Positions 25,826-61,604 of a stretch of DNA of 64,000 bases are shown here, piece after piece. The stretch is taken from positions 2,914,001 through 2,978,000 of the forward strand of contig NZ_JANAVO010000001.1 in the NCBI RefSeq assembly GCF_024213555.1, in the 5' to 3' direction. Source of the DNA: Allokutzneria sp. A3M-2-11 16 (GTDB lineage Bacteria; Actinomycetota; Actinomycetes; Mycobacteriales; Pseudonocardiaceae). Position 1 is the first letter of the stretch. Every line of letters starts with the position of its first letter. The position numbers and the translations under genes were made by a program. The notes below the pieces were generated by a model, which was given only the letters and a program-made list of their open reading frames with translations, was not told the DNA's origin and did no database searches.

Positions 25826-25961
25826 CCGGGTCCACCCGTCTTCAAGTACACCGGACCCCCTCCCCAGCAGTCTCAAACAGCCCCCAACCCCGGCCGGGGT
25901 TGGGGGCTGTTTGAGACCGTTTTTGGTGGGGTTCGTGGTACTTGAAGACTGCCCAACCCGG
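25826..25961. repeat. Family B hairpin element, copy 1
   Basis: Outer arms GTCTTCAAGTAC (25838-25849) and GTACTTGAAGAC (25938-25949) are flanked by a further CCGGGT / ACCCGG pair. Inside is a perfect 48-bp palindrome at 25870-25917 with no loop. The element fills the whole gap between the convergent carboxylase and reductase genes. Core length is 112 nt. Confidence 0.9.
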
Positions 25962-25966
25962 CTGGG

Positions 25967-26830
25967 TCAGGCGTCGAGGCGGGCCAGCTCGTCCGCGCTG
26001 AGGGTGAGGTGGACGGCCTCGACCGAGGAGCGGATGGTCTCGGGGCGCGAGGAGCCGGGGATCGGGATCACCCGCTCGGACTTCGCCAGCTCCCAGGCCA
26101 GGCAGATCTGCTGCGGGCTGACGCCGCGCTCCTTGGCGATCTCGGCGAAAGCGGCGTGCTGCGAGCCGAGGTCGGCCGCGCCGCCCATACCGCCGAGCGG
26201 GCTCCACGGCAGGAACGCGATTCCCAGCTCGTCGCACAGCTCCAGCTCCGGCAGGGACGACCGGAATCGCGGGGAGAACTCGTTCTGCACCGCGGCCAGC
26301 CGCCCGCCGAGGACCTCGTTGGCCGAGCGGATCTCGGCCGGGTTGAAGTTCGACACCCCGGCCATCCGGATCTTGCCCTCGTCCAGCAGCTCCGCCAGCG
26401 CGCCGACCGACTCCTCGATCGGCACCTTCGGGTCCGGGCGGTGCAGCTGGTAGAGGCCGATCGCGTCGACGCCGAGCCTGCGCAGCGAGCCCTCGCACGC
26501 CCGCTTCAGGTACGCCGGGCTGCCGTCCAGGTCGAAGCCGTCGCCGGGCGTGCGGGTGTGACCGCCCTTGGTGGCCACCAGGACGTCGTCGCGGCCCTTC
26601 AGCGCCTCCGCGATCAGCACCTCGTTGTGCCCGAACTCGGCCGTTGTCATCGCGTACGCGTCGGCGGTGTCGATGAACGTGATGCCCGCGTCCAGTGCGG
26701 CGTGCACGGTGGTGATCGCCTGCTCACGGCTGGGCATGGCCTTGCCGGACGGCGGCATGGACAGCGGCATGCCGCCGAGCCCGATCGCGGAGACGGAGAC
26801 CGTGCCGATCCTGCGCTGCTGCAATGTCAC
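25967..26830 (-). CDS. Aldo/keto reductase, copy 1
   Basis: A 287-residue TIM-barrel NADPH oxidoreductase. Motifs are the first strand VSVSAIGLGGMPLSM, the catalytic Asp/Tyr region FIDTADAYAMTTAEFGHNE, ATKGGHTR with the catalytic Lys, LYQLHRPDP, and the C-terminal cofactor region PIPGSSRPETI. The substrate is unknown. GTG 26830 overlaps the stop of the other reductase gene (26827-26830), so the two are translated together. It is about 60 percent identical by eye to its neighbour, which points to tandem duplication. Confidence 0.92.
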   Translation of the reverse strand: MTLQQRRIGTVSVSAIGLGGMPLSMPPSGKAMPSREQAITTVHAALDAGITFIDTADAYAMTTAEFGHNEVLIAEALKGRDDVLVATKGGHTRTPGDGFDLDGSPAYLKRACEGSLRRLGVDAIGLYQLHRPDPKVPIEESVGALAELLDEGKIRMAGVSNFNPAEIRSANEVLGGRLAAVQNEFSPRFRSSLPELELCDELGIAFLPWSPLGGMGGAADLGSQHAAFAEIAKERGVSPQQICLAWELAKSERVIPIPGSSRPETIRSSVEAVHLTLSADELARLDA

Positions 26831-27660
26831 TCCTTGTCGAGCGTATTCAACTCTTCCTCGGACAGCCGCAGGTGCGCCGCGGCGGCCGAGTCGCGAATGG
26901 TCGAGGGGCGGCGGGAGCCGGGGATCGGGATCACCACCGGGGACTGCGCCAGCTCCCAGGCCAGGCAGACCTGCTGCGCGCTGACGCCGTGTTTCTCGGC
27001 GACCTCGGCGAAGGCGCCGCCGATCCGGCTCGCCGTGCCGACGCCGCCGAGCGGGCTGTACGGCAGGAAGGCGATGCCCAGCTCGTCGCACAGCTCCAGC
27101 TCCGGCCGGGACGAGCGCACGCGCGGCGAGAACTCGTTCTGCACGCTGACCAGTCGTCCGCCGAGCGCCTCGTTGGCAACCCGGATCTGTTCGGTGTCCA
27201 CATTGGACATTCCGGCCATGAGGACCTTCCCGGCGTCGATCAGCTCGCCGATCGCGCCCGCCGACTCGCTCAGCGGCACGTCCGGATCGGGCGCGTGCAG
27301 CTGGTAGAGCCCGATCGCGTCCACGCCGAGCCGCCGCAGCGACGCGTTACAGGCCCGGCGCAGGTACTCCGGCGAACCGTTCAGCCCCCAGGCGCCGTGC
27401 TCCCGCGTGCACCCGGCCTTCGTCGCGATCAGCACGTCCTCGCGGCCGACGACGGCCTCCGCGACCAGTTCCTCGCCGTGGCCGAACTCGGTGTGGTCGA
27501 TGCAGTAGGCGTCGGCGGTGTCGATCAGCGTCACCCCGGCTTCCAGGGCGGCCCGGATCGTCGCGAGCGCTGCCTGCTTCGCGGGGCGGCCTACGTCGGA
27601 CAGCGGCCACTCGCCGAGGCCGATCGCACTCACCGGGATTCCGCCGATGGACCTGTTCAT
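26827..27660 (-). CDS. Aldo/keto reductase, copy 2
   Basis: A 277-residue paralogue of the downstream gene. It has IPVSAIGLGEWPLSD, LIDTADAYCIDHTEFGHGEE, ATKAGCTR, LYQLHAPDP and PIPGSRRPSTI. It is the first gene of the two-gene run and starts at ATG 27660, 55 bp from the divergent GlmL-like gene. A GTCCACATTGGAC palindrome lies inside it at 27196-27208, encoding part of S-N-V-D-T. Function beyond NADPH-linked carbonyl reduction cannot be read. Confidence 0.92.
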   Translation of the reverse strand: MNRSIGGIPVSAIGLGEWPLSDVGRPAKQAALATIRAALEAGVTLIDTADAYCIDHTEFGHGEELVAEAVVGREDVLIATKAGCTREHGAWGLNGSPEYLRRACNASLRRLGVDAIGLYQLHAPDPDVPLSESAGAIGELIDAGKVLMAGMSNVDTEQIRVANEALGGRLVSVQNEFSPRVRSSRPELELCDELGIAFLPYSPLGGVGTASRIGGAFAEVAEKHGVSAQQVCLAWELAQSPVVIPIPGSRRPSTIRDSAAAAHLRLSEEELNTLDKE

Positions 27661-27715
27661 ACGGGACAGCCTGAACCAGTAAGAGTTGGAGTGCCAACCA
27701 AGTACGTTTGCGGTC

Positions 27716-29032
27716 ATGGAACCCGTTCTCTGCCTCGACGTGGGCTCTACGTGGACGAAGGGCGCGCTGATCGGCCAGGACGGGAGCCTTCTCGGCACGG
27801 CCCAGCACCGCACCACGCCACCCGAGGTGATGAACGGCATCGCGGCGGTCGCGGCGGCGGTCGGTGGTGATCCCGCGACGGCCCTGGTCTGCTCATCGGC
27901 GGGCGGAGGGTTGCGGCTCGCCGTGGTCGGCCAGGAGCGCATGGTCAGCGCGGAGGCGGGCTACCGCGTCGCTTTGTCCGCCGGTGCGAAGGTGGTGCAC
28001 GTCGCGGCGGGCGAGCTGGACGGAGCCGGAGTCCGCGCGCTGCGGGAGAGCCGTCCTGATGTGCTGCTGCTCGTCGGTGGGACGGACGGCGGCGAGACTC
28101 GTGTGCTGTTGCACAACGCGCACCGCATTGCCGCGAACCGCCTGCGCTGTCCCGTTGTGCTCGCGGGGAATGTGCATGCGGGGCAGGAGGCTTTGGCCAC
28201 GCTGCACGCCACGAAGCGCACCGTCGTTCCCACGGACAACGTGCTGCCCGACGTCGGCGAGCTTGCCCCTGGCCCCGCGCGGCGGGCGATCCGCGAGGTC
28301 TTCCTCCAGCACGTGATCGGCGGCAAGGGGCTCTCGCGCGGGCCCCGTTTCCGCCGCATGGTGCGCGCGGTGACCCCGGACGCGGTTCTTCGCGGGGTTT
28401 CCCGGCTCGCCGCGACGTCGGCCACCGATGAGGACAGTCCGGGCGCGGTGCTCGTGGTGGACGTCGGCGGAGCCACCAGCGATGTGTACTCCGCAGTGTC
28501 CACTGTGGACGATGACACGCCCCGGCGGACCGTTGGGCTGCCCGCCGATCGGCGCACCGTGGAGGGCGACCTCGGCATGCGGTGGTCGGCTCCTGGCGTG
28601 GTCGCCGAGGCTGTCGCGGAGCGGCTGCTCGCGGACGGTGAGGAAGGCCCGCTCGCCGAGGCCGCCGCGTTCCGTGCTGCCGACGTCGGCTGGATTCCCG
28701 AAGCGGCGCAAGACATCGCGATCGACGCCCGCCTTGCTTCGCTGGCCGCGGTCGTGGCGCTGCGCAGGCACCTTCGGCTCGTCGAAGGTCGCATGGGACC
28801 GAAGGGCGCCGGGCTGCTGGTGCTCTCCGGCGGCGTGTTCCGGCACGCGTCATCGTCCACATTGGACATTGTTCGCGAAGTGCTGGCAGGGGACTCCGTG
28901 CTGCGCCCGATCCTCCGCCAAGCGCGCGTCACGGTGGACACCGACTACGTGCTGGCCCCCGCTGGCCTCCTCGCCGACGCCGCCCTAACCGACGCCGCCG
29001 ACCACCTCCTCCGCACCCGCCTCATCCCCTAG
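27716..29032 (+). CDS. GlmL/MutL-family ATPase-like protein, orphan
   Basis: A 438-residue protein of the ASKHA fold. The phosphate-1 motif DVGSTWTKGALI is at residues 8-19, and a second nucleotide loop DVGGATSDVYS is near residue 250. In clostridia GlmL accompanies the adenosylcobalamin-dependent glutamate mutase and is thought to act as a chaperone or reactivase. No mutase, cobalamin or ornithine aminomutase gene is near it here, so the partner is unknown. It holds two copies of the recurrent palindrome (28498-28510 and 28855-28867). ATG 27716 starts the conserved strand. Confidence 0.82.
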   Translation: MEPVLCLDVGSTWTKGALIGQDGSLLGTAQHRTTPPEVMNGIAAVAAAVGGDPATALVCSSAGGGLRLAVVGQERMVSAEAGYRVALSAGAKVVHVAAGELDGAGVRALRESRPDVLLLVGGTDGGETRVLLHNAHRIAANRLRCPVVLAGNVHAGQEALATLHATKRTVVPTDNVLPDVGELAPGPARRAIREVFLQHVIGGKGLSRGPRFRRMVRAVTPDAVLRGVSRLAATSATDEDSPGAVLVVDVGGATSDVYSAVSTVDDDTPRRTVGLPADRRTVEGDLGMRWSAPGVVAEAVAERLLADGEEGPLAEAAAFRAADVGWIPEAAQDIAIDARLASLAAVVALRRHLRLVEGRMGPKGAGLLVLSGGVFRHASSSTLDIVREVLAGDSVLRPILRQARVTVDTDYVLAPAGLLADAALTDAADHLLRTRLIP

Positions 29033-29040
29033 CGCGCCGT

Positions 29041-29181
29041 GGTTGGACAGTCTTCAAGTCCCACGCACCCCACCGAAAACCATCGCAAACCACAGCGAAC
29101 CCTGGCCCGGGGCGCCGCGAGGTTGCTCGTCGTTTGAGACACCCTCAGCGGGGGTTGGGGGGACTTGAAGACGCCCCAACC
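29041..29181. repeat. Family B hairpin element, copy 2
   Basis: Outer arms GTCTTCAAGTC (29050-29060) and GACTTGAAGAC (29162-29172) with an outermost GGTTGG / CCAACC pair. The inner stem is degraded: CGCAAACCAC and CGTTTGAG regions pair only partly. Core length is 123 nt. It fills the gap between convergent genes and is the most diverged copy in the window. Confidence 0.85.
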
Positions 29182-29191
29182 CGCCCAGCGG

Positions 29192-31504
29192 TCAGGGCGT
29201 TTCGAGGCCCGCCGCGATGGCGACGGCGCGGTCCCACTCCGGGTCGGGCTGATATTCGTTGTGCCCCAACACTCCTGGCGCCCAACGCAGACCCGGGAAA
29301 GGCCCGCGCAGCGGATCGGGCAGCCAGTGGTCGTTGCCCAGCACGAGAGCCCCTGTCGGGCCGGTGGCGGCGGGGGAGAGCGGCCCCTCCGAACCGTCGT
29401 GCCGGAAGCCGACGCCGAGCATCCTGCCGTTGTAGACCTGCTGCGACCACGTGGTCACCGGCCCGCCGAGCGCGTCAGTACCGCGGCACAGCGCCCGCCA
29501 GCGCGGCCCCAGCATCCCGGCGAGCGTGGCCAGCGAGGAATGCGGCACCACGGCGGGAAACCCCCTCGGGTAGGCCCATTGCAGCTGCGAGCCCACCGTG
29601 ACCAGGCCGATCCGCTCGCGGTCGTACTCCGGCAGCGAGTCGACCAGCCACGCCGCGGCGACCGCGGCCATCAGGCTGCCCTGGCTGTGCCCGACCAGCA
29701 CGACCCTGGTGTTCGGCTCCTTCAGGTGCTCGCAGGCGCGCGCCACGATCTCCGGGACGACCTTCAGCTTGTAGCAGGGCGGCACCGTCGGGTGCGCCTC
29801 GCGCGGCCAGAACGAGGCGAGGTCGGCGAGGATGCCGAGCTTCCGCGCCCGGTCGGGGTGCTGAGAGGCTTGGTACACAACGAAGAGGAAGCCACCGGCG
29901 AGTCCGGCCAACGTGGCCACGCCCAGCCCGGACAACCCCAATGCCCAGTCCGGGACCGGGATGTTCAGTGCGCGGAAGAACCCGCCGAAGACCGCGCCCG
30001 CGGTGAGTAAACCGGCGGTGGCGATCAGCAGCCGGTGGTAGTTCCGCCGCTGCCAGGTGGCCTTCCGCCACTTGCGCGCGGCGCGCTTGGCGTCCTCCGG
30101 GCGGTCCTTGTGCAGCAACGCGACCTCGGGCGGGGTGTAGTTCCCGCGCTTCTCCGCGACCGAGCGCGACAGCAGCCACAGCGGGACCGCGACGGCCAGC
30201 ACGACCAGCGCGATCGCGGCGAAGGTCCCCCACAGCAGGGTGATCCACTGGTAGCCCAGCGGCAGCGCGAGCTTGTCGTAGCCCAGCGAGCTGCGCACCG
30301 TGATCGCCATCCCGGCGCCGAACCCGCCGCCGAGCAGCCCGGCGAGCGCCAGCATCGGCGCCGCCATCCAGCCGCCCGCCCACGGACGCAGCTCACGGGC
30401 CTGCTTCGCCCACTCCGACCTGGCCATCAGCGCGGCCGGGGCCAGCACGATCGCGACGACCACCGCGACCAGCGCCAGCAGCGCGCCCAGCAGCTCAGCG
30501 GTCGGATCGGCGCCGACGAGCTTGCCCGCGGGCGGTTCGACCAGCACCGCGGTCGCGATCAGCAGGGCTCCGGCGGCGATCATCAGCAACCGGCGCGGTC
30601 CCGTGCCCAGCGCCCCGCGCAGCCAGCGGCCCGGCCCCTCCGGCTGCGTTCCGGTCGGGTCGTCGAGGAAGAACACGCCGACCATCGAGATGGCCAGCAA
30701 CACCAGCGCTGCGGTCCACAGCGCGCTCACGCCCGCCGTCACCGGCCCCATCGGACCGCCGAGGACCAGCAACGACGCCACCGCCAGTGCGGCTGTCACG
30801 TGCAGCGCCCGCAGCGCGGGGGTGTCCGGGTCCGCCTCGACCCCGCCGCCGGGCAGCGTCGGCATCCGGCGGCCGGGCGCGTCACCCAGCTCGTGCTTGA
30901 TCGACACCGTCCAGTCCACGGTGGACAGCCGGTGCATCGCGAAGACGATGAGCAGCACGGGGAGCAGGCCGATCAGCCCGCGCACCCCCGGGATCTCCCG
31001 CACCCACCTGGGCACGGTCGAGGTCAGGCACGCCGCGTCCGGCGCGAGGCACTGCGCGGCGATCAGATCGGCCGAGACGACAGTGAGTTGCCCCACAAGA
31101 AGCATGGTCAGCAGCAGCGCGGCCAGCCGCAGCAGCGCGCGCAGGAACGTGCCCAGCGCGTGCGCGACGCGCTTGCCCTCGGGGATCGGCGGCAGCATCC
31201 AGTGCGCCACGTTGGCCAGGGAGAACGGGAACAGCAGGGCCCAGCTGGCCTTGGCGAGGCCGCCCGAGGTCATCGCGGACCAGACGTAGCCCTCGATCAC
31301 CCTCGGCACCGGCCGCCCGCCAGCGTGCAGCGACGGCGCGGGCGCGGGCCTGCGCATCCGGTCGGCGGGCCGGACGATCCGCCCGAGCTTGTCGCCTGCC
31401 ACGGTCGCCGTCGCGACCGCGCCGGTCACCGATTCCGGTGTGGCACCCGCGATCCCCGGCACCCGAAGCTCGACGACGCGTGTGTCCGGTCCTGGGAGCA
31501 GCAC
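29192..31504 (-). CDS. Multipass membrane protein with C-terminal alpha/beta hydrolase
   Basis: A 770-residue protein. Residues 1-125 include a helical pair region, then about ten hydrophobic segments are spread from about residue 80 to 560. After the last helix is a hydrolase-like domain with the nucleophile elbow VVLVGHSQGSLMAAVAAAWL near residue 600, and VTVGSQLQWAYPRGF follows. The Ser in G-H-S-Q-G is the expected nucleophile. It looks like a membrane-bound lipase or esterase, but I recognise no named family. GTG 31504 follows GGAAGGAGA. The frame stays open to 33235 on the far side, antisense to ahcY, and that part is rejected. Confidence 0.8.
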   Translation of the reverse strand: MLLPGPDTRVVELRVPGIAGATPESVTGAVATATVAGDKLGRIVRPADRMRRPAPAPSLHAGGRPVPRVIEGYVWSAMTSGGLAKASWALLFPFSLANVAHWMLPPIPEGKRVAHALGTFLRALLRLAALLLTMLLVGQLTVVSADLIAAQCLAPDAACLTSTVPRWVREIPGVRGLIGLLPVLLIVFAMHRLSTVDWTVSIKHELGDAPGRRMPTLPGGGVEADPDTPALRALHVTAALAVASLLVLGGPMGPVTAGVSALWTAALVLLAISMVGVFFLDDPTGTQPEGPGRWLRGALGTGPRRLLMIAAGALLIATAVLVEPPAGKLVGADPTAELLGALLALVAVVVAIVLAPAALMARSEWAKQARELRPWAGGWMAAPMLALAGLLGGGFGAGMAITVRSSLGYDKLALPLGYQWITLLWGTFAAIALVVLAVAVPLWLLSRSVAEKRGNYTPPEVALLHKDRPEDAKRAARKWRKATWQRRNYHRLLIATAGLLTAGAVFGGFFRALNIPVPDWALGLSGLGVATLAGLAGGFLFVVYQASQHPDRARKLGILADLASFWPREAHPTVPPCYKLKVVPEIVARACEHLKEPNTRVVLVGHSQGSLMAAVAAAWLVDSLPEYDRERIGLVTVGSQLQWAYPRGFPAVVPHSSLATLAGMLGPRWRALCRGTDALGGPVTTWSQQVYNGRMLGVGFRHDGSEGPLSPAATGPTGALVLGNDHWLPDPLRGPFPGLRWAPGVLGHNEYQPDPEWDRAVAIAAGLETP

Positions 31505-31687
31505 GTGTCGTCTCCTTCCCCTCGCCGACCATGGTGACCGGACGGCGCTCGCTTCGGTTAGCCCTTGCCCGGGTCGTATCCCCTTCGTGCATCCTGCGAC
31601 ATCGGGAACGTGAATCCCGTTACCTGGGGCGCACGGCGTGGCTAACGGTAGGGTCTCGACTGAACATCCCACCTGGACGGAGCGATC

Positions 31688-33151
<1,464 letters not shown>

Positions 33152-33167
33152 TCGACCGCGGTCGAAC

Positions 33168-33200
33168 GGCGGCCCGTCTCCCACGCGGAGGCGGGCCGCC
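33168..33200 (+). terminator. Terminator after ahcY
   Basis: A 14-bp stem (GGCGGCCCGTCTCC / GGAGGCGGGCCGCC, one G-T pair) with loop CACGC, 16 bp after the ahcY stop. The rest of the gap to 33353 holds a weaker hairpin around 33277-33310 that may serve the minus-strand gene. Confidence 0.85.
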
Positions 33201-33353
33201 GCCGTTTCCGGGGACTGGATTTGTGTTGGTGGCAAAGGGAAAACGCTGAAAACCCACGTCGTAGCCTCAGTGCTCTTGCGGACCTCGCAAAGCTGTGAGC
33301 TGCGAAGTCCTTGATGGCGGTGTCAACCGACCGGTGTAGCGCGCGGGCCCGGA

Positions 33354-34169: not shown

Positions 34170-34382
34170 CGTCGTGCTGCTCCGTAGGTCGGCGATGTGG
34201 GTCGGCGGTGGAGGCCCCGGCGCACCCCACTGTCCTGGAACTCGGCCATCGACAGTACCTCCGACCAGGCGTTTACCTGAGCACGGGGGCAAGGCGACTC
34301 CCTCGGCGCACCCCCGACAGGACGACGGCCGTTCGGCCGAACGCACCCCGTTGCCGCTGGTCGGAGCCGAGGAGGCGCTAGC

Positions 34383-44710: not shown

Positions 44711-44756
44711 CCCTCCTCCTCCCGCGCTGACTCCTCCGTCCGCGCACAACTCCCCA

Positions 44757-44788
44757 ACGCCCGCCCTCCCACTCCGGAGGGCGGGCGT
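44757..44788 (+). terminator. Terminator after secA
   Basis: A perfect 13-bp stem (ACGCCCGCCCTCC / GGAGGGCGGGCGT) with loop CACTCC, followed by CGTTGTT. It sits just before a family C element, so secA is followed by two hairpins in a row. Confidence 0.88.
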
Positions 44789-44795
44789 CGTTGTT

Positions 44796-44858
44796 CCCGT
44801 TTCGTACTCATAGCAGGAAAGAGAGCGCTCCCAAATCCCGTTATGAGTACGAAACGGG
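44796..44858. repeat. Family C hairpin element, copy 1
   Basis: A 63-bp element with perfect 16-bp ends CCCGTTTCGTACTCAT / ATGAGTACGAAACGGG. The inside has GGAAAGAGAGCGCTCCCA. It differs from the copy at 55784-55846 at only five positions and has the same length. It lies between convergent genes. Confidence 0.9.
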
Positions 44859-44873
44859 CTAAACACCGCTGGG

Positions 44874-50922: not shown

Positions 50923-50926
50923 GCCA

Positions 50927-51063
50927 GGTTCGCCGGTCTTCAAGTACCCCGAACCCCCTTCCCAGCGATCCGTAACTGCCACAAACCCCCGTCGGTGACG
51001 GGGGTTTGTGGCAGTTTGAGACGCTTTGAACGGGGGTTGGGGGTACTTGAAGACGCCCCAACC
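50927..51063. repeat. Family B hairpin element, copy 3
   Basis: Outer arms GTCTTCAAGTACCCC (from 50936) and its near-complement ending at 51054 with GTACTTGAAGAC. The inner stem is perfect over 20 bp: AACTGCCACAAACCCCCGTC (50974-50993), loop GGT, complement 50997-51016. Core length is 119 nt. It is between convergent pruA and a lipoprotein gene. Confidence 0.92.
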
Positions 51064-51975: not shown

Positions 51976-52010
51976 GGTGCTACTCCCTTGGAGCGAGTGG
52001 TGGGGTGCCG

Positions 52011-53063: not shown

Positions 53064-54340
53064 GACGCCTCCACGGCTGCCCCGTCCAGCATTGTCCGCC
53101 ACATGGCGGGGAAGTCCGGCATGGTCTTGGCGGTGGTGCCGATGTCGTCGACCTCGACGCCCTCGACGCGCAGCCCGATGATCGCGCCCGCGGTGGCCAT
53201 GCGGTGGTCGGCGTAGGCGCCCCAGACGCCGCCGTGCAGCGGACGCGGGCGGATGACGAGCCCGTCCTCGGTCTCCTCCGCGTCCCCGCCGAGCCGGTTG
53301 ATCTCCGCGGTCAGCGCGGCGAGCCGGTCGGTCTCGTGGCCGCGGATGTGCGCGATGCCCCGCAGCCGCGTCGGCCCCTCGGCGAGCGCGGCGATGGCGG
53401 CGATGGTGGGGCTCAGCTCGGAAGCGTGCCGCAGGTCCATGTCGATCCCGGTGAGCACGTCGGCGCCGCGGACGGTCAGCCCGCGCTCGTCGAGCACGAC
53501 CTCGCAGCCCATGAGCGTGAGGATCTCCCGGATCGCGTCGCCGGGCTGCGTGGTGCGCGCGGGCCAGCCGGGCACGGTGACCTGGCCGCCGGTGACTGCG
53601 GCCGCCGCGAGGAACGGCGTCGCGTTGGACAGATCCGGCTCGATGTCCCAGTCCCGCGCGGTGATCACGCCGGGCCGCACCCGCCAGGTGTTCGGCTCGT
53701 CGTCATCGACCTCGACGCCGTGCGCGCGCAGCATCTCGATGGTCATCTCGATGTGCGGCAAGGACGGAACGGGCTCGCCGTCGTGCACGACGGTCAGGCC
53801 GTTGTCGTAGCGCGCGCCGGAGAGCAGGAGACCGGAGACGAACTGCGACGAATGCGAAGCGTCGATCACCACCTGGCCGCCGGTGAGGTGCCCGGTGCCG
53901 TGCAGCGTGAACGGCAACGCGTCACCGTCGACGTCCGCGCCGAGCGCCCGCAGCGCTTCGAGGATCGTGCCCATCGGGCGTTCCCGCGCGCGTGGATCTC
54001 CGTCGAACCGCACGGCGCCCTTGGCCAGCGCGGCGGCGGGCGGGACGAAGCGCATGACCGTGCCCGCGAGCCCGCAGTCGAGCTCGGCGGGACCGGTCAG
54101 CGGCGCCGGTGTGACCAGCCACGACCCATCCGGCCCGTCCTCGATGCCGACGCCGAGCGCGCGCAGCGTGCCGACCATCAGCTCGCTGTCCCGGCTGCGC
54201 AGGGGCGCGCGGAGCACCGACGGACCGTCCGCTAGCGCCGCCAGCACCAGCGCGCGGTTGGTGATCGACTTTGAGCCGGGCAGCGGGACTTCCGCGTGCA
54301 CGGGGGAGTCGGTGCGGGGGGCCAGCCAGTGCGAGGTCAT
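53060..54340 (-). CDS. aroA: 3-phosphoshikimate 1-carboxyvinyltransferase (EPSP synthase)
   Basis: A 426-residue enzyme of the shikimate route that joins shikimate-3-phosphate and phosphoenolpyruvate. Motifs are [20 protein letters not shown] near residue 20, [28 protein letters not shown] and [15 protein letters not shown] near the end. ATG 54340 starts at [16 protein letters not shown], like mycobacterial AroA; the frame is open upstream but lacks homology. It is divergent from the SRAP gene with 69 bp between. Confidence 0.96.
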
Positions 54341-54409
54341 GTGTCGATGATCCCCCAACCTGCCGCGCGGCCCTCGCCCGGACCGGGCTGACATGCCACG
54401 ATGGATCAC

Positions 54410-55171
54410 GTGTGCGGCAGATTCGCCACCACCCGGGACCCGGACTCGCTTGCCGCCGAGTTCGACGCGGTGGATGGCACCGAAGGTCTGGTGGGCGGCG
54501 CGGACTACAACGTGGCCCCGACCAAGCACGTCCCGGCCGTCGTGGCGCGGCATCCGCGCGACGCCGAGGGCGAGCCCGATCCGGACTCCCTGGTCCGCAG
54601 CATCAGGATGATGCGCTGGGGCCTGGTGCCGATGTGGTCCAAGGACCCCTCGGTCGGCTCACGCATGATCAACGCACGGGTGGAGTCGGCCGCGGAGAAA
54701 CCCGCGTTCCGCACGGCCTTCGCCCGCCGCCGCTGCCTGATCCCGGCCGACGGTTGGTACGAGTGGCAGGGCGACGGCGACCGCAAGCAGCCCTTCTACG
54801 TGACCCCGGAGGACGGTTCCGGGCTGGCGCTCGCGGGCATCTGGGAGACGTGGCGCTCCCCGAAGTCGGCGGCCGACGAGTTCCCGATGGTGACCTTCGC
54901 GGTGCTGACCACGGACTCCTTCGGGCAGCTCGCCGACGTGCACCACCGGATGCCGATCATGCTGCCGCGGCACGCGTGGGCGGACTGGCTGAACCCGGAT
55001 TCGCCCGATCCCACGGCGCTGGTCGCGGAGCCCGACCCGAAGCTGCACGCGGGACTGGAACTGCGCCCGGTGACGACGAAGGTCAACAGCGTCCGCAACA
55101 ACGGTCCGGAACTGCTCACCCGGTTCGTCCCGGAGGAACCGGCCGAACAAGCACTCTTCGAGCTGCCATGA
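54410..55171 (+). CDS. SRAP domain protein (HMCES/YedK type)
   Basis: A 253-residue protein that crosslinks to abasic sites in single-stranded DNA to protect them. The catalytic Cys must be residue 2, and only GTG 54410 gives Met-Cys-Gly-Arg-Phe; ATG 54401, three codons upstream, would bury it. Other active-site parts are YNVAPT (Asn34), [29 protein letters not shown] and HHRMPIML. It corresponds to Rv3226c. Its stop overlaps the start of the next gene (ATGA). Confidence 0.95.
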
Positions 55172-55779
55172 CGACACTGGAGATCGACACCCCGTACGGC
55201 CCGGCACGGGCCGAGCTGCACTGCGCACCCGAGGCCCGCGCCGCGTTGCTGCTCGGGCACGGCGCCGGTGGTGGCATCAGCGCCCCCGACCTGGTCGCGG
55301 TGACCCGCGCGGCCACCGCGGCGGGTTTGGACGTCGCGCTGGTCGAGCAGCCCTACCGCGTCGCGGGCCGCCGCGCGCCCGCTCCCGCCAAGCAGTTGGA
55401 CGCCGCGTGGTTGGCGGTGGCTGAGCACCTGGGCTCGTCGTGGTGCGAGGACCTCCCGCTGGTCTTCGGAGGCCGGTCCTCCGGAGCGCGCGTCGCCTGC
55501 CGCACGGCAGCGGAGGGCCAAGCGGTCGCCGTGCTGTGCCTGGCGTTCCCCGTGCACCCGCCCGGCAAGCCGGAGAAGTCGCGGATGGCGGAGCTGTCCG
55601 AGGTCGAAGCCCCCGTGCTCGTCGTCCAGGGCGAGCGCGACCCGTTCGGCATGCCGCCCGCCGCGCACCACCGCGAGGTCGTGGTGGTCCCCGGCGACCA
55701 CTCCCTCAAGGCCGACGTGGCCCTCGTCGGCCGCACGGCAGGCGAATGGCTCGCCCGAGTCCTCCGCCCCCTCGACTAG
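55168..55779 (+). CDS. Small alpha/beta hydrolase (KANL3/Tex30-like)
   Basis: A 203-residue hydrolase-fold protein. The oxyanion strand is ALLLGHGAGGGISAPDL, the nucleophile elbow is FGGRSSGARVAC (Ser), then VLVVQGERDPFG with the acid and VPGDHSLK with the His. This family is close to dienelactone hydrolases; substrates are unknown. ATG 55168 overlaps the SRAP stop, so they are co-translated, which hints at a shared stress role without proving it. Confidence 0.88.
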   Translation: MTTLEIDTPYGPARAELHCAPEARAALLLGHGAGGGISAPDLVAVTRAATAAGLDVALVEQPYRVAGRRAPAPAKQLDAAWLAVAEHLGSSWCEDLPLVFGGRSSGARVACRTAAEGQAVAVLCLAFPVHPPGKPEKSRMAELSEVEAPVLVVQGERDPFGMPPAAHHREVVVVPGDHSLKADVALVGRTAGEWLARVLRPLD

Positions 55780-55783
55780 TTCT

Positions 55784-55846
55784 CCCGTTTCGTACTCTTG
55801 CCGGGAAAGAGAGCGCTCCCAATTCCCGTTATGAGTACGAAACGGG
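55784..55846. repeat. Family C hairpin element, copy 2
   Basis: A 63-bp element with ends CCCGTTTCGTACTC / GAGTACGAAACGGG and an inner CGGGAA / TTCCCG pair around AGAGAGCGCTCCCAA. It starts four bases after the hydrolase stop and lies between convergent genes. It is about 92 percent identical to the copy at 44796. Confidence 0.9.
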
Positions 55847-55907
55847 ATTGGTTTGGACCACCTCAGCCAAAGGAGGGGGTGGCGGGGGCGAAGTGCATGG
55901 GGTCAGT

Positions 55908-56390
55908 TTACGTGTCGGCGGCGATGGGGGCGAAGACGGCGGACGTGAGGCGGGCCAGGTCGGCGGGGGAGAGTTCGACTTCGAGGCCGCGGCGGCCCGC
56001 GCTGCAGAAGACTGTGGCGAAGGTCTCGGCTGAGGCGTCCACGACGACCGGCAGGCGCTTCTTCTGGCCCAGCGGCGAGATCCCGCCCGCCACGTAGCCC
56101 GTCGCCCGCTCCGCGTCCGGGACCGGCGCCATCTTCGCCTTCTTGCCACCCACCGCGGCGGCCAGCGCCTTCAGGTCGAGCTGAGCCGTGACCGGGACGA
56201 CGCCGACCGCGAGCTTGCCGTCGACCTCGGCCACCAGGGTCTTGAAGACCCGTTCCGGCTCCAGGCCCAGCGCCTCCGCGGCTTCGAGGCCGTAGGAGGC
56301 GTGCCTCGGATCGTGCTCGTAGGAGTGCAGCTCGTGCCGCACCTTCTGCTTGTCCAGCAACGCCGTCGCCGGAGTCCCGCGTCCCGCCAT
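55908..56390 (-). CDS. ybaK: Cys-tRNA(Pro)/Cys-tRNA(Cys) deacylase YbaK
   Basis: A 160-residue editing-domain protein that removes mischarged amino acids from tRNA. The conserved pieces are TPATALLDKQKVRHELHSYE, EALGLEPERVFKTLVAEVDG with the key Lys in V-F-K-T-L, and ATGYVAGGISPLGQKKRLP. ATG 56390 is 53 bp from the predicted upstream sigH start. There is a short GGGTCTTGAAGACCC inside the gene at about 56229-56243 that resembles family B ends by chance. Confidence 0.93.
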   Translation of the reverse strand: MAGRGTPATALLDKQKVRHELHSYEHDPRHASYGLEAAEALGLEPERVFKTLVAEVDGKLAVGVVPVTAQLDLKALAAAVGGKKAKMAPVPDAERATGYVAGGISPLGQKKRLPVVVDASAETFATVFCSAGRRGLEVELSPADLARLTSAVFAPIAADT

Positions 56391-56408
56391 GATCGAACCC
56401 TAGAACCA

Positions 56409-56434
56409 GGAATGCGGGGAGCGCCCACCGCGTT
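56409..56434 (+). promoter_or_regulatory. SigR/SigH-type autoregulatory promoter
   Basis: GGAAT at 56409-56413, an 18-bp spacer, and GTT at 56432-56434 match the SigR/SigH consensus exactly. Transcription would begin near 56440-56446, so the in-frame GTG at 56444 would be at or near the 5' end of the message. This is the expected place for feedback by the sigma factor on its own gene. Confidence 0.8.
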
Positions 56435-56599
56435 TCCCCACGTGTGGGAACCGAGCTGATGAGCGATCCAGGCAAGCGCTGCCCGTCGCGGCCGCCGAGA
56501 GACTCGCGGACCGGCCGTGGGGCCGCGCGCCGCGTATCCTCGGGGCCGACGTCACCGGCGATGGGACAGGTCCCGCCGGAGTGGTTGGAAGGGAGCCAG

Positions 56600-57229
56600 G
56601 TGCCCGACACCTCGCCCGAGGTCGAAGAGGTCGCCGAGGAGACCGCGGATCAGCGCGGAGCGCGTTTCGAACGGGACGCGATGCCGATGCTGGACCAGCT
56701 GTACTCGGCCGCGCTGCGGATGACGCGCAACCCCGCCGACGCCGAGGACCTGGTGCAGGAGACCTTCCTCAAGGCATACGGCGCCTTCGCGTCGTTCAAG
56801 GACGGCACCAACCTCAAGGCGTGGCTGTACCGCATCCTGACCAACACCTACATCAACGGTTACCGCAAGAAGCAGCGCCAGCCGGTGCAGCAGCCGACCG
56901 AGGAGATCCAGGACTGGCAGCTCGCCCAGGCGGAGAGCCACACCTCATCGGGTCTGCGCTCCGCCGAGGTCGAGGCGCTGGACCGGCTGCCGGACAGCGA
57001 CGTCAAGGACGCCCTTCAGCGACTTCCGGAGGAGTTCCGGATCGCGGTATACCTCGCCGACGTCGAGGGATTCGCTTACAAGGAGATCGCGGACATCATG
57101 GGTACGCCGATCGGGACCGTCATGTCCCGGTTGCACCGCGGCCGTCGCCAACTGCGCGAGATGCTGACCGGTGTGGCCGAGGAGCGTGGTCTGCTGCGCG
57201 GCCGTCAGCGCGAGGTGACGGGGTCATGA
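56600..57229 (+). CDS. sigH: ECF sigma factor SigH/SigR
   Basis: A 209-residue ECF sigma factor for thiol-oxidative and heat stress. Region 2 has [20 protein letters not shown] and [20 protein letters not shown]; region 4 has [49 protein letters not shown] 56600 has GGAAGGGAG at a good distance and gives the normal family length. The same frame is open upstream with starts at GTG 56444 and ATG 56459, adding 52 or 47 residues, close to the 55-residue extension of the unstable SigR isoform in Streptomyces coelicolor. It overlaps rshA by 4 bp and corresponds to Rv3223c. Confidence 0.94.
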
Positions 57230-57582
57230 ACTGCGGGGACCACGAGACCGACTGCTCCGAGGTGCTGGCCGAGGTGTGGCTCTACCTGGACCAGGAGTGC
57301 GACAAGACGCGGCGCGAGCTGCTGCACCGGCACCTCAACGAGTGCAACCCGTGCCTGGAGAGCTACGGCATCGAGGAGCACATCAAGGCGCTGCTCGCCC
57401 GCAAGTGCGGTGGCGAGCACGCGCCGGACACGCTCAAGGACCGGCTGCGCGCCTGCATCCGGGAGCAGGCCGACGTGATCGTCCAGCACGGTGCGGAGGG
57501 CACCACGGTGGAGATCCGGCACAAGAAGGTCGAGTCCCGGACTGCCGAATCCAGAACCGTCGAGTCCCGCACCGAGGACTAG
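57226..57582 (+). CDS. rshA: Zinc anti-sigma factor RshA/RsrA
   Basis: A 118-residue ZAS-type anti-sigma factor that holds SigH until disulfide stress. The redox/zinc ligands are Cys10, His36, Cys40 and Cys43 (H-x3-C-x2-C), matching RsrA, with further Cys at 3, 25, 60 and about 77. The C-terminal tail repeats V-E-S-R-T three times and looks disordered. ATG 57226 overlaps the sigH stop (ATGA), keeping the pair in balance. It corresponds to Rv3221A. Confidence 0.95.
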
Positions 57583-57592
57583 AAGACGCGAA

Positions 57593-57625
57593 AAGGCCCC
57601 GCGACCGTCTGGTCGGCGGGGCCTT
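57593..57625. terminator. Two-way terminator between rshA and bL37
   Basis: AAGGCCCCGC (57593-57602) pairs with GCGGGGCCTT (57616-57625), with an inner GACC / GGTC pair. It lies between the convergent rshA and bL37 genes and has A and T runs on its two sides. Confidence 0.88.
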
Positions 57626-57638
57626 CGCATGCCCGATG

Positions 57639-57713
57639 TCAGGCGTTGGGGCGCTTCCCGTGGTTCGCGCCACCCTTCTTACGGTCGCGCTTCTTGCGTC
57701 CCCGCTTCGACAT
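57639..57713 (-). CDS. Ribosomal protein bL37 (24 residues)
   Basis: A 24-residue highly basic peptide that begins MSKRGRKKRDRKKG and ends ANHGKRPNA. It matches the actinobacterial bL37 found in the mycobacterial 50S subunit (also annotated as AURKAIP1/COX24-like). ATG 57713 has AGAGGTGAC upstream. It is too short for routine gene callers. It stands between sigH-rshA and the biotinylated peptide and may be read from a promoter in 57714-57858. Confidence 0.93.
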   Translation of the reverse strand: MSKRGRKKRDRKKGGANHGKRPNA

Positions 57714-57858
57714 TGCGTCACCTCTTTTGCTGATGAACGGCTGTGACTCCAGCCGTGGCTTGCCGCCGTCAAGTCTGACACGTGTGAAACAGGGGCTCCC
57801 GCGTGGCCTCGCTCGTGATTGGATTGCGGCGGTTCATCAGCGTCAAGGAGGACATGGG

Positions 57859-58071
57859 ATGGCCGAGGAGATCAAGGCCGAGATGGTTGCCAACGTCTGG
57901 AAGGTCGTCGTCAAGGACGGCGACACCGTGGAGGACGGCGACACCTTGGTGATCCTGGAGTCCATGAAGATGGAGATCCCGGTCGTCGCCGAGTCCGACG
58001 GCGTGGTGACCATCAAGGTCGCCGAGGGTGACGTGGTCCAGGAAGGCGACCTGGTCGCGGTCGTCGACTAG
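57859..58071 (+). CDS. Biotinylated carrier peptide (TB7.3-like)
   Basis: A 70-residue biotinyl-lipoyl attachment protein. The biotin Lys37 sits in ESMKMEIPV, and the rest is the usual flattened barrel (VWKVVVKDGDTVEDGDTLVI, GVVTIKVAEGDVVQEGDLVA). ATG 57859 has AAGGAGG seven bases upstream; ATG 57854 is out of frame. It corresponds to Rv3221c, whose partner enzyme is uncertain. The stand-alone biotin carboxylase at 24473-25825 lacks a carrier domain and is a plausible partner. Confidence 0.95.
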   Translation: MAEEIKAEMVANVWKVVVKDGDTVEDGDTLVILESMKMEIPVVAESDGVVTIKVAEGDVVQEGDLVAVVD

Positions 58072-58093
58072 AACCGCCCCCACGTCCGCCCAC

Positions 58094-58231
58094 GGGTTGG
58101 AGCGTCTTCAAGACCACCGAACCCCCGTTCCAGCGGTCGTCAACCGCGGCGAACCTCGTGCAGTGCCGGGGGTTGGTGGCGGTTGACGACGGTTGTGGCG
58201 GGGGTTGGGGGTACTTGAAGACCCCCACACC
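58094..58231. repeat. Family B hairpin element, copy 4
   Basis: Outer arms GTCTTCAAG (58104-58112) and CTTGAAGAC (58214-58222). The inner stem GTCGTCAACCGC (58136-58147) pairs exactly with GCGGTTGACGAC (58179-58190), with a further CGAACC / GGTTGG pair inside. Core length is 119 nt. Here it lies between two genes on the same strand. Confidence 0.9.
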
Positions 58232-58302
58232 ACTGGGGCTCAGGATGGGAACAGCCACCGCGTTGTGGGGGTGGCGGGTGACAACGCGGGTCACAATGAG
58301 GT

Positions 58303-59802
58303 GTGTCCACCCTCAGTGAACTGCTCGCCGAGCACACTCGCCTGCCCGGTACCGCTGTCGACCACCTCCAGCTCGTCGTGGCGGAGTGGCAGCTGCTCTC
58401 CGATCTTTCGTTCGCGGACTTCCTCATGTGGGTTCCTGTCGAGGAGAGCGAGGAAGGCGGCGGGGACGAGCGATTTCTGTGCGTGGCGCAGGCCCGGCCC
58501 ACCACCGCGCCGACCGCGCACCCCGAGGACATGGTGGGCTCGGTGGTCACCGCGGCGGAGCACCCGCAGCTGCGACGTGCCATGGCCGAGGGCCGGATCT
58601 GTCGCGAGGAGGACCCGCGCTGGCACCTCGGAGTGCCGGTGCGCCGCGAGACCATCCCGGTGCTCATCGACCGGTCCTGCGTGGCGGTGCTGAGCCGGGA
58701 CATCAACCTGGCCGTTCCCCGCGTGCCGAGTCCGCTGGAGATCGCCTACCTCGGCAGCGCCGCCGACCTGTGCCAGATGATCGCCGACGGCACCTTCCCC
58801 GCGCCGGAGCCGACACCGGGAGCGCACACCAGCCCGCGCGTCGGCGACGGGTTCATCCGCCTCGACCCGGCGGGCGCGGTCGTCTTCGCCAGCCCGAACG
58901 CGCTGTCCGCCTACCACCGCATGGGCCACGCCTCGGATCTCGTCGGGGTGCACCTGGCCCCGCTGACGCGCTCGCTGATCTCCGATCCGTTCGACGCGAC
59001 CGAGGTCGTGCAGCGCGTCCGCTCAGCGCTCGACGGCAAGCCGAGCATGCGGGTGGAGGCCGAGGCGCGCGGAGCCATGGTGCTCTTCCGCGCGCTGCCG
59101 CTGCGCCCGCGCGGCCAGTCCGCGGGCGCGCTCGTGCTGGTTCGCGACATCACCGAGGTGCGGCGCCGGGACCGCGCGCTGATGTCCAAGGACGCGACCA
59201 TCCGCGAAATCCATCACCGCGTGAAGAACAACCTGCAGACCGTCGCGGCGTTGCTGCGCCTGCAGGCGCGCCGGACCGGAAATGACGAGGCCCGCCAGGT
59301 CCTTGAGGAGTCCGTGCGCCGGGTGACCTCGATCGCGCTGGTGCACGAGACGCTGTCCATGTCGGCCGACGAGCGGGTCAGCCTGGACGACGTCGTCGAC
59401 CAGGTGATCCCGATGATGAGCGATGTCGCGACCACCGAGACCCGGGTCGCCGTGCGCCGCGAGGGCAAGTTCGGGGTCGTCCCGGCGGAACTGGCCACGC
59501 CGCTGGTGATGGTGCTGACCGAGCTGGTGCAGAACGCCTTCGAGCACGCTTTCGAGCCTGGTCAGCGCGGGGACGTGCTGGTCACCGCGGAGCGCTCGTC
59601 GAAGTGGCTGGACGTGGTCGTCTACGACGATGGACGGGGCCTGCCGCCGGGGTTCTCGCTGGAGCGGACCAAATCGCTGGGCCTGCAGATCGTGCGGACG
59701 CTGGTGGAGTCGGAACTGCGCGGTTCGCTCAGCCTGCGCAGGCGCACCTCGGCACCGGGCACCGAAGCCGTGCTTCGGGTACCGCTGAAACGGCGACGTT
59801 AG
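58303..59802 (+). CDS. pdtaS: Sensor histidine kinase PdtaS
   Basis: A 499-residue soluble kinase. It has an N-terminal GAF domain (TAVDHLQLVVAEWQLLSDLS), a PAS domain (residues about 180-290), then a HisKA_2 region with EIHHRVKNNLQTVAALLRLQ (His304/His305) and an ATPase domain (ELVQNAFEHAF, YDDGRGLPPGF). PdtaS phosphorylates the RNA-binding antiterminator PdtaR, which is not in this window. GTG 58303 is the start. It corresponds to Rv3220c and is convergent with whiB1. Confidence 0.95.
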   Translation: MSTLSELLAEHTRLPGTAVDHLQLVVAEWQLLSDLSFADFLMWVPVEESEEGGGDERFLCVAQARPTTAPTAHPEDMVGSVVTAAEHPQLRRAMAEGRICREEDPRWHLGVPVRRETIPVLIDRSCVAVLSRDINLAVPRVPSPLEIAYLGSAADLCQMIADGTFPAPEPTPGAHTSPRVGDGFIRLDPAGAVVFASPNALSAYHRMGHASDLVGVHLAPLTRSLISDPFDATEVVQRVRSALDGKPSMRVEAEARGAMVLFRALPLRPRGQSAGALVLVRDITEVRRRDRALMSKDATIREIHHRVKNNLQTVAALLRLQARRTGNDEARQVLEESVRRVTSIALVHETLSMSADERVSLDDVVDQVIPMMSDVATTETRVAVRREGKFGVVPAELATPLVMVLTELVQNAFEHAFEPGQRGDVLVTAERSSKWLDVVVYDDGRGLPPGFSLERTKSLGLQIVRTLVESELRGSLSLRRRTSAPGTEAVLRVPLKRRR

Positions 59803-59859
59803 TCGTATACGTGAATGCACACGTAATAATTGGTGAACCGGAGATTGCTCCGGACATAA

Positions 59860-59899
59860 CTGAGGGCCGACACCATTGTGGACGGGTGTCGGCCCTCAG
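59860..59899. terminator. Two-way terminator between pdtaS and whiB1
   Basis: A perfect 15-bp stem (CTGAGGGCCGACACC / GGTGTCGGCCCTCAG) around ATTGTGGACG, with A/T-rich flanks on both sides. It lies between convergent genes. Confidence 0.92.
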
Positions 59900-59928
59900 A
59901 AATATATGTGGGGGTGTGCAGCCTGCAA

Positions 59929-60183
59929 TCAGGCACCGCTCCGGGCCCGGGTGCGAGCGTTGCGGCGCTTCAGCGCACGACGCTCGTCTTCGCTCATTCC
60001 GCCCCAGACGCCGGCGTCCTGGCCGCTTTCGAGTGCCCAGGTCAGGCAGTCGGAGATCACGGGGCAGCGACGGCACACGGCCTTCGCCTCGGCGATCTGC
60101 AGCAGCGCAGGCCCACTGTTCCCGACCGGGAAGAACGTCTCCGGGTCTTCGTCGCGGCAGGCCGCGCGGTGGCGCCAGTCCAT
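59929..60183 (-). CDS. whiB1: WhiB1 iron-sulfur regulator
   Basis: An 84-residue WhiB protein, the same length as M. tuberculosis WhiB1. Cluster ligands are Cys9, Cys37, Cys40 and Cys46. It has the GVWGGMSEDERRALKRRNAR turn and basic tail. In mycobacteria WhiB1 binds the main sigma factor and its cluster reacts with nitric oxide. ATG 60183 has GCGAGGAGC upstream and gives MDWRHRAACRDEDPE; the frame is open to 60285 but that adds no family sequence. It corresponds to Rv3219. Confidence 0.97.
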   Translation of the reverse strand: MDWRHRAACRDEDPETFFPVGNSGPALLQIAEAKAVCRRCPVISDCLTWALESGQDAGVWGGMSEDERRALKRRNARTRARSGA

Positions 60184-60208
60184 TGTTCCTAGCTCCTCGC
60201 CAGGCGCG

Positions 60209-60285
60209 ATAATCACGCCAGTTGTGGGGTTGGGGTGTCGTTCGTGGGTGCTTGTGAATGCTTTCACGAACTCCGGCGATGTCAA
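60209..60285 (-). promoter_or_regulatory. whiB1 promoter region with CRP-type site
   Basis: TGTGA-ATGCTT-TCACG at 60253-60268 matches the CRP consensus TGTGA-N6-TCACA at nine of ten positions. On the minus strand a GATTAT hexamer at 60214-60209 could be the -10, which would put the site centre about 58 bp upstream of the start, the position reported for the activating CRP site of M. tuberculosis whiB1. A TTGACA at 60285-60280 is an alternative -35 for a second, overlapping promoter. The rest of 60286-60419 shows no clear signal. Confidence 0.6.
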
Positions 60286-60419
60286 GAGGTCCGAACCAAA
60301 TCGGTGAGGGAACTCACCACATGGGGGGACCGGACTGACCTGCGGTTTCAGGCCGTAACCGGACCTTCGAAAATCTTGCCTCGCGATGGTGTGCCGATCG
60401 CTGTGCCACCGCCGAAGGG

Positions 60420-61340
60420 TTACACCGCCACCTGCAGTGCGCCGGGCACCGAAGTGAAGCGCACCTCGGTCCGTTCGCCGAGCAGGTCACCATCAACCTG
60501 CAACTTTACCGGATTCTCGCACGTGACGCGCGCCCATTCAATGTCGTCTTCTCGGAGGAGGTGTACACCGCGAGGGTCGGGAGCGCTCCGGGTTGCCTGG
60601 GCGAGGTGTTTTACCACCGTGAGTGTACGAACGTTACTCAGAGCGAACACGCCGAGCCCGGAGTCGAGTGAACACTCCGGATTGAGCCGAAGTGGGCGGG
60701 TCCCGTAGTAGGTCCAGGGGTCGGTGTTGGACACCAGGGCGATGTACTGCCCGGGGATCGGGTCCCGGCCGGGCAGGTGCACGGTCAGCTGCGGCTCCTC
60801 GCGGCGCAGCCGCAGGTACCGGGAGACGGCGACCTTCGCGTAGAGGAGCGGGGTCGCCTCCTTGCGCTTGACCCGGCGCTGCTCGACCCCGGCCACCACG
60901 TCGCCGTCGTAGCCGAGGCCCGCGTTGAAGGTGAACCAGCGGTCGTCGGCGCGGCCCAGCCCGACCCGCCTGCTGCTGCCCGACTCGATGGCGTTGAGCA
61001 GCTTGTGCGTGGCCTCCAGCGGGTCCAGCGGGATGCCGAGCGCACCCGCGAAGACGTTGGCGGAGCCGCCGGGCACCACGCCCAGCATCGGGGCGTCCGG
61101 GCGCACGCCGTCGGCGAGCAGGCCGTTGACCACCTCGTTGACCGTGCCGTCCCCACCGTGCGCGACCACCAGGTCGAAGCCGTCGGCGACGGCCTGCCGG
61201 GCGGCGTCGGCCGCGTGGCCCCGGTACTGGGTCTCCACCAGGTCCAGCTTGGTGTCGCTGGCCAGGGCGTGGGCGATCACGTCGCGGCCCGCCGGGGTGG
61301 TGGAGGTGGCCTGGGGGTTCACCACGAGAAGGGCACGCAC
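60420..61340 (-). CDS. Diacylglycerol kinase-like lipid kinase
   Basis: A 306-residue protein of the DAGK catalytic fold. The N-terminal RALLVVNPQATSTTPAG is followed by the nucleotide motif VVAHGGDGTVNEVVNGLLAD near residue 60 and GVVPGGSANVFAGALGIP. The C-terminal beta sandwich (QVDGDLLGERTEVRF) is complete. It phosphorylates a lipid alcohol such as diacylglycerol or sphingosine-like lipid; the exact substrate is not readable. GTG 61340 begins the conserved strand. It corresponds by position to Rv3218. Confidence 0.9.
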   Translation of the reverse strand: MRALLVVNPQATSTTPAGRDVIAHALASDTKLDLVETQYRGHAADAARQAVADGFDLVVAHGGDGTVNEVVNGLLADGVRPDAPMLGVVPGGSANVFAGALGIPLDPLEATHKLLNAIESGSSRRVGLGRADDRWFTFNAGLGYDGDVVAGVEQRRVKRKEATPLLYAKVAVSRYLRLRREEPQLTVHLPGRDPIPGQYIALVSNTDPWTYYGTRPLRLNPECSLDSGLGVFALSNVRTLTVVKHLAQATRSAPDPRGVHLLREDDIEWARVTCENPVKLQVDGDLLGERTEVRFTSVPGALQVAV

Positions 61341-61485
61341 CCCAGCAGCGTATGACAGCGCGTGACCAGCTGCGCGGCGCGAGCGCTCGGGTTAGACGGA
61401 CCTCACTCTCGAACGGGTGACGCACGCCCTACCGGGGCGGGGCCCGGTCATCTCCGCCGAACGCGTGCCCTGCCGTAGCTGGGGT

Positions 61486-61604
61486 GTCTTCAAGTACGCA
61501 CAACCCCCGCCAGGAACATCGCAAACCGCCCCCTACCTCCACGGCGGCTCCGGGTTCGTGGCGGTTTGCGGTGATCAACGGCGGGGTTGGGTGGTCTTGA
61601 AGAC
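61486..61604. repeat. Family B hairpin element, copy 5
   Basis: Outer arms GTCTTCAAG (61486-61494) and CTTGAAGAC (61596-61604), exactly 119 nt apart end to end. The inner stem CATCGCAAACCGCC (61517-61530) pairs with 61560-61573 with one G-T pair. This copy is between divergent genes, in the 329-bp gap 61341-61669 that otherwise holds no gene I can see. Confidence 0.9.

Follow-up and report, generated by a model that had tools for sequence, protein, structure and literature searches.

Copies of the element in the window

The window, a stretch of 64,000 nucleotides (nt) from Allokutzneria sp. A3M-2-11 16 (contig NZ_JANAVO010000001.1, positions 2,914,001 to 2,978,000), carries five copies of a repeated element whose core begins with GTCTTCAAG and ends with CTTGAAGAC. 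The cores lie at 25838-25949 (copy 1, 112 nt), 29050-29172 (copy 2, 123 nt), 50936-51054, 58104-58222 and 61486-61604 (copies 3, 4 and 5, exactly 119 nt each), in agreement with a preliminary description of this DNA. The perfect inner stems that it reported, 24 base pairs (bp) in copy 1 and 20 bp in copy 3, are present in the sequence. The AACCCCC/GGGGGTT layer, said to be shared by the copies, holds as a consensus and not in every copy: copy 1 reads GGACCCCC/GGGGTTC and the left side of copy 2 reads GCACCCC.

The five sites were compared with those of two relatives. Genome G034 (93% identity, 7% divergence) is closer to the studied genome (G000, 8.81 Mb) than is G068 (about 90% identical to both), and was therefore taken as the sister species, with G068 as a same-genus outgroup. 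Copy 1 is part of a 143-nt insertion (25824-25966) relative to both, in which two stop codons abut with the same 2-nt junction (GA). Because sister and outgroup keep this junction, copy 1 was gained in the studied genome. At copy 2, the homologous flanks are separated by 171 nt here and by 8 nt in G034. The site of copy 3 is occupied in G034 by a 51-nt stretch with an ordinary-looking hairpin and in G068 by 454 nt in which no core motif was seen by eye. Copy 4 is flanked by the end of a biotin/lipoyl-domain gene on one side and by a called plus-strand gene on the other; the same site has 36 nt and no element in G034, and a degenerate related element, judged by eye, in G068. Copy 5 lies upstream of a minus-strand DAGK-domain gene, and in G034 its homologous flanks are 7 nt apart. 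A neighbouring minus-strand frame (61655-62656), EamA-like by our own reading and without a Pfam match, looks shortened in G000, with 48 nt between homologous flanks where G034 has 285 nt.

Copy number and comparison with the sister species

When the studied genome was searched with GTCTTCAAG-N86..116-CTTGAAGAC, 228 exact-ended pairs were found and the reversed control gave none, so the search for further copies that the preliminary description had called for confirms a multi-copy family. Close reading covered 1.66 Mb, or 19% of the genome, in two stretches of a single contig (33 + 26 exact pairs), and 15 further loci. Seventy exact-ended elements of 100-135 nt, whose ends are invariant by selection of the set, were used for the analyses below, and the 119-nt class among them gave an alignment of 32 rows.

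The part compared with G034 (858 kb) yielded 26 rows; one had no right flank and two represented one site, which left 24 comparable sites. None of them holds a pair in G034, as no pair was found in 880 kb of that genome even with one mismatch allowed per end. At 10 of the 24 sites the flanks are separated by 14 nt or less. The element is also missing from both G034 and G068 at C11:565821, 568788, 2604081 and 2886347, as judged from printed sequence or coordinates. At the compared sites, then, presence of the element is species-specific. Target-site duplications, another check proposed earlier, were not seen by eye in the 18 rows aligned with G034; in the same rows a few target bases appear to be replaced at the junctions.

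The copies themselves are diverse. Median identity is 73%, the nearest neighbour is 82% identical, and the best pairs reach 94.6% and 91.7% among 70 of at least 228 copies, so that closer ones may exist. Ordinary copy-and-paste does not explain this diversity, and the main puzzle is that the sites are young and the sequences in them look old. It would be resolved if old lineages moved frequently or if copies were altered as they were made.

Anatomy of the arm and helical spacing

Each arm consists of a 31-bp dyad around GTCTTCAAG (unit 1) and a half-site 32 bp further inward (unit 2). The half-site has the consensus AAS-NNC-NNC-N-AACC (about 14 bp) and occurs three times per arm and six times per full element: unit 1 is made of two half-sites face to face, and unit 2 is a third one in the same direction. 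In copy 3, for example, the left arm (50936-50989, plus strand) contains the right half of the unit 1 dyad (GTCTTCAAGTACCCCGAACCCC) and the unit 2 half-site (AAC at arm position 39), and the inverted right arm (51001-51054, minus strand) has the same layout. Nearly fixed positions in a pattern-free profile of 140 arms are 12, 15 and 18-20 in unit 1 and 35, 39-41, 44, 47 and 50-52 in unit 2; those in between vary more freely.

The sequence upstream of GTCTTCAAG mirrors unit 1 (G at -4 in 74%, T at -7 in 95%, G at -8 in 95% and G at -9 in 75% of 129 arms, a profile in which the search pattern itself fixes several positions), and unit 1 is therefore a dyad of two half-sites. The outer half is dyad-symmetric in these 129 arms, and GGT stands at -9 in 92 of 148 arms found with a strict pattern. 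The distance between units 1 and 2 in the 148 strict arms is exactly 32 in 105 and 31 or 33 in 5; there was no match in 24 and a pattern artefact at 22 in the remaining 14. Of 136 arms, 130 place the unit 2 AAC at position 39, so that the arm is rigid. A coding explanation of the 3-nt periodicity within the half-sites was rejected, as the period slips between units 1 and 2, which are 32 bp apart.

Arms occur mainly in facing pairs. A facing partner lies within 400 nt of 59 forward arms; the diverging (< >) and same-direction (> >) arrangements occur once and twice at this range. The strict pattern left 31 arms unpaired, eight of them in called genes and six with a partner that by eye only misses the pattern, leaving about 17 solitary arms.

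The two inner half-sites are separated by 4-5 bases in 9 elements, 7-8 in 5, 14-20 in 51 and 26 in 3 (68 of the 70 elements). The peaks are at 4, 15 and 26, and nothing falls at 9-13 or 21-25 within the 100-135 nt range that defines the set. When exact pairs of 100-160 nt in the 1.66 Mb were considered, all 57 fell into matching length bands, which were drawn after the lengths had been seen. No single period stands out sharply (resultant 0.67-0.70 for 10.5-12). Steps of about 11 nt correspond to about one helical turn and make sense for recognition of duplex DNA, not for a hairpin loop.

Arm pairing, covariation and folding

The preliminary description proposed that the sequence of the inner stem changes while its pairing is kept, either through selection on a structure or because a process that copies inverted repeats remakes the element. 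When the two arms of one element were compared, ungapped, with arms of different elements (70 elements), the outer unit showed no excess of matches (0.763 vs 0.764 shuffled) and the spacer matched worse than shuffled (0.377 vs 0.428). The free positions of the inner unit matched at 0.686 vs 0.519 ± 0.020 shuffled, so that the likeness of the inner arms is real but local. At positions 34-54 the arms are 70% alike or less in 27% of the elements, including those with an indel of 1-2 nt.

In the 32 copies of 119 nt, the covariation score was 0.111 vs 0.082, the cells changed on both sides were 64 vs 47.9, and the paired cells were likewise in excess; none of 500 shuffles reached the observed value in any of these measures. 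The number of pairs with both sides changed (14 vs 14.3) and of pair types (31 vs 33.7) did not exceed shuffles, and 10 of these 14 pairs lie in the inner helix. All measures fell when partner columns were slid, though the structure had been derived from the same sequences. Covariation above shuffles is thus found once copies are aligned, and kept pairing under changed sequence holds in part for the inner unit; it does not extend to the outer layer or the spacer, and selection for structure over the whole element finds no support.

Such a remaking of the element by the copying of inverted repeats may still apply, and template-switching correction of near-palindromes would give the same inner-arm likeness. 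Mismatches of the G-T and A-C types (89 vs 88) are weak evidence either way, because the orientation of the element is arbitrary. Transitions make up 29% of mismatches vs 30% shuffled at positions 42-49, and 41% vs 34% shuffled at positions 36-38.

Inner-unit covariation above shuffles is what a structured RNA or small-RNA family with pairing selected throughout would show. We consider such a family very improbable, however: the excess is absent outside the inner unit, Rfam gave no match in the window at the gathering threshold, and the sister species has no pair at any of the 24 sites compared. Recognition as duplex DNA is favoured over a conserved RNA hairpin because solitary arms exist, spacing changes in 11-nt steps and arm likeness is limited to the inner unit.

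Distribution of the element and of the single arm

The exact pair pattern was found in four of 297 genomes of the family, namely G000, G034 (one) and G068 (six), which are all the genomes of this genus that the search covered, and G130, a member of another genus in which the layout differs; its reversed control matched in one unrelated genome (G019). A slightly stricter pattern, run against named genomes, returned at least eight loci, comprising four in Allokutzneria sp. NRRL B-24872 and four single matches in unrelated organisms.

The arm unit GTCTTCAAGNNCNNCNNACCC is spread more widely, with 551 occurrences in G000, 36 in G068, 9 in G034, 26 in G008 (also of another genus), 14 in G130 and 1-3 in seven more. 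It is thereby present in 12 of the 297 genomes, where the control gave none. It is absent from the order's other families (207 genomes), for which the control gave two single matches. In G008 the unit often forms a near-perfect dyad (e.g. GTTTGTGGGTCTTCAAGACCCACAAAC), the two free bases of the dyad halves are by our own reading often not complementary, unit 2 follows at 32 bp in about half of the loci, and most arms are single. The module held in common is thus the single arm; what expanded in G000 is the inverted pair. At one G068 locus (L211, G068:C22), the unit is repeated with its flank in tandem, 277 bp apart.

Location at gene ends

Against gene calls from a home-made program, 31 of 58 exact elements lie between convergent genes, 25 between tandem genes, 2 between divergent genes and none within genes. 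The 1577 intergenic regions used for comparison comprise 271 convergent, 1037 tandem and 269 divergent ones (p about 1e-12). Per available gene 3' end the preference for convergent sites is still observed (31/56 vs 34% expected, p 0.0017). Copy 5 was counted as divergent; a minus-strand gene ending at 61655 looks likelier by our own reading of the G034 sequence. Cores often begin 12-28 nt past stop codons.

Convergent sites made up 8 of 12 loci read in G008 (the other four being tandem) and three of five in G130, whose other two are inside polyketide synthase genes. G068 has three convergent, two divergent and one undecided locus and two without the strict unit (eight in total), and G034 one convergent and one tandem locus. 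In the two polyketide synthase genes of G130 (L207:1478 and L208:1521) the family arm lies in the open frame, in the linker that directly precedes the KR domain.

Placement shortly past stop codons would suit RNA hairpins that are selected as bidirectional terminators where genes converge. The 32 copies of 119 nt fold very stably into G+C-rich hairpins (mean -77.5 kcal/mol vs -43.6 for mononucleotide-shuffled sequences), and true arm pairs fold 3.5 kcal/mol better than chimeras (z -2.6, 23/5000 permutations). A terminator function is nevertheless improbable. No U-tract was seen by eye beside the cores in the printed flanks, the outer tier does not covary, solitary arms exist, and the 11-nt spacing classes have no evident RNA meaning. 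In addition, the 10 orthologous G034 junctions of 14 nt or less leave no room for a hairpin terminator.

The convergent bias of the 58 elements and of the G008 loci could also reflect a role in chromosome topology. A nucleoid protein or DNA gyrase would then dock at the elements, much as at BIME-2 and strong gyrase sites, and the elements would be kept where two-sided transcription piles up positive supercoils. Several clean sites hold insertions of about 143-171 nt, in which conserved AA/TT steps are roughly in helical phase by our own reading, and this fits the idea. The Escherichia coli gyrase cleavage motif, as described in PMC6379681, has phased 10-bp G/C variation and is overrepresented in BIME-2. 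We still regard a topological role as unlikely. The sister species has almost no copies, so the element is not essential to the genus. From 108-nt to 119-nt copies the centre moves by half a helical turn with respect to the arms, and a fixed central cleavage site would thus not be kept. Moreover, the half-site grammar is more specific than bending needs.

Comparison with known repeats

The sequence of BIME-2 we take to be unrelated to that of the family described here. Its organisation as an intergenic mosaic of palindromic units that are candidate topoisomerase sites is similar (PMC6379681).

REPINs, as described in PMC3116915, are hundreds of extragenic inverted doublets together with singlets, having a less conserved spacer, hairpin potential and preferred doublet distances (71 and 110 bp). 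The present family resembles them, with 59 facing pairs of an extragenic unit and about 17 singlets. It differs in that no RAYT was found in G000, G034 or G068, that the arm holds three phased half-sites and that central spacing changes in 11-nt steps. In PMC3733652, REP tag families are described as extragenic and as located for the most part between genes that are convergent or unidirectional; in two species plotted there they mostly lie less than 20 bp from both 3' ends. These features agree with our observations, but no GTAG tag is present, and the C before GTC is found in only 42% of 129 arms and is not fixed. CGTC families, which according to the same source also have no linked transposase, are the nearest precedent; unlike the element here, their units have a stem of 8-9 bp and a loop of 4-5 nt. 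They are listed in five phyla, Actinobacteria not being among them, and the text does not contain 'actinobacter', 'streptomyces' or 'mycobacteri' (PMC3733652). The family thus works like REPINs and is not one of them, as RAYT and a fixed tag are both lacking.

Miniature inverted-repeat transposable elements (MITEs) are similar in being short and non-coding, with inverted ends and species-specific insertions. Terminal inverted repeats of this type are present here, but no target-site duplication was seen, and among arms in the 1.66 Mb (19% of the genome) no parental transposon sharing the ends was noticed. Integron attC sites likewise have conserved ends and a variable, self-complementary middle; they were rejected, as the copies are scattered singly and not in a cassette array and the core sequence is another one. 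Among the matches listed when open-licence literature was searched by core sequence, by repeats of Pseudonocardiaceae or Allokutzneria and by terminators at convergent genes, no description of this family was found, as judged by titles and, for the core sequence, also by abstract openings.

A proposed REPIN-like mobile repeat bound as duplex DNA

We consider it somewhat better than an even bet (probability roughly 0.55) that the family is a lineage-expanded, non-autonomous, REPIN-like mobile repeat whose working part is duplex DNA bound by a putative protein. This builds on observed features, namely the anatomy, spacing and copy number, the species-specific presence at compared sites, the location at gene ends and the occurrence of the unit in other genera. 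The earlier RNA-structure interpretation is mostly replaced by one of duplex-DNA binding arrays carried on a mobile repeat.

A multimeric DNA-binding protein, most likely the mobilising enzyme or else a host protein that it recruits, would bind the half-sites, and the same protein may pair the two arms in a short loop. The second, inverted arm would be spaced to keep both arms on the same helix face, and the spacing steps of about 11 bp would arise because the protein pairs the arms in this short loop. Gene 3' ends are probably either where the element inserts or where its survival is best. The ability of the element to form a hairpin may come mainly from the fact that one binding consensus is common to both arms; hairpin-templated correction, or modest selection, would keep the innermost part alike.

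Several observations weigh against this explanation. No transposase was identified, and RAYT (Y1_Tnp, PF01797) is absent from G000, G034 and G068 in a search whose control gave matches in 5 of 14 genomes. Two G034 sites keep relics (by eye), and with the degenerate copy at the G068 site of copy 4 they indicate that part of the pattern is loss. Target-site duplications were not seen by eye in the 18 aligned rows. The copies differ far more than expected if each had arisen from another since the split from G034. Finally, the inner-unit covariation leaves room for a selected hairpin, and the slightly better folding of true arm pairs points the same way.

A more radical form of the mobile-repeat explanation seems doubtful to us, though it should be mentioned. 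Here a new kind of mobile repeat, with neither RAYT nor target duplication, would be delivered into the few bases between convergent stop codons and would rewrite its free half-site positions as it spreads, so that young insertions would already differ by 20-30%, with contact positions and helical phase preserved.

Among bacterial extragenic repeats, REPs with their enzyme RAYT are the best understood. The family described here combines REPIN-like organisation and location without RAYT with a readable binding grammar, helical phasing and near-empty sites in a sister at 93% identity. It is therefore well suited to studying how such repeats spread, why they come to sit at convergent gene ends and how diverse copies arise on a short branch.

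Neighbouring repeats

A second repeat (CCCGTTTCGTACTC...GAGTACGAAACGGG) is present at 44723-44873 and 55780-55913, the latter filling a junction that has 2 nt in G034. Its 14-mer occurs 39 + 36 times on both strands in the 1.66 Mb of G000 and is absent from the 880 kb of G034. Short intergenic palindromes of the CCTGAACGACCCGTTCAGGG and GAATGAGTCATTC types lie at 4116-4226, 6972-7069 and 16669-16724. The GAATGA(G/C)TCATTC-type palindrome is also found in G034 (nine in 880 kb), and different palindrome families share such junctions. A tandem duplication (25985-26482 and 26848-27336) is 78% identical in two matched blocks, its first copy being in an aldo/keto reductase gene. Outside the window, at about 3195691-3195931 of C11 in G000, an element is split centrally by a GAATGAGTCATTC-type palindrome; the G034 site has, by eye, that palindrome alone, and repeat families are thus nested here.

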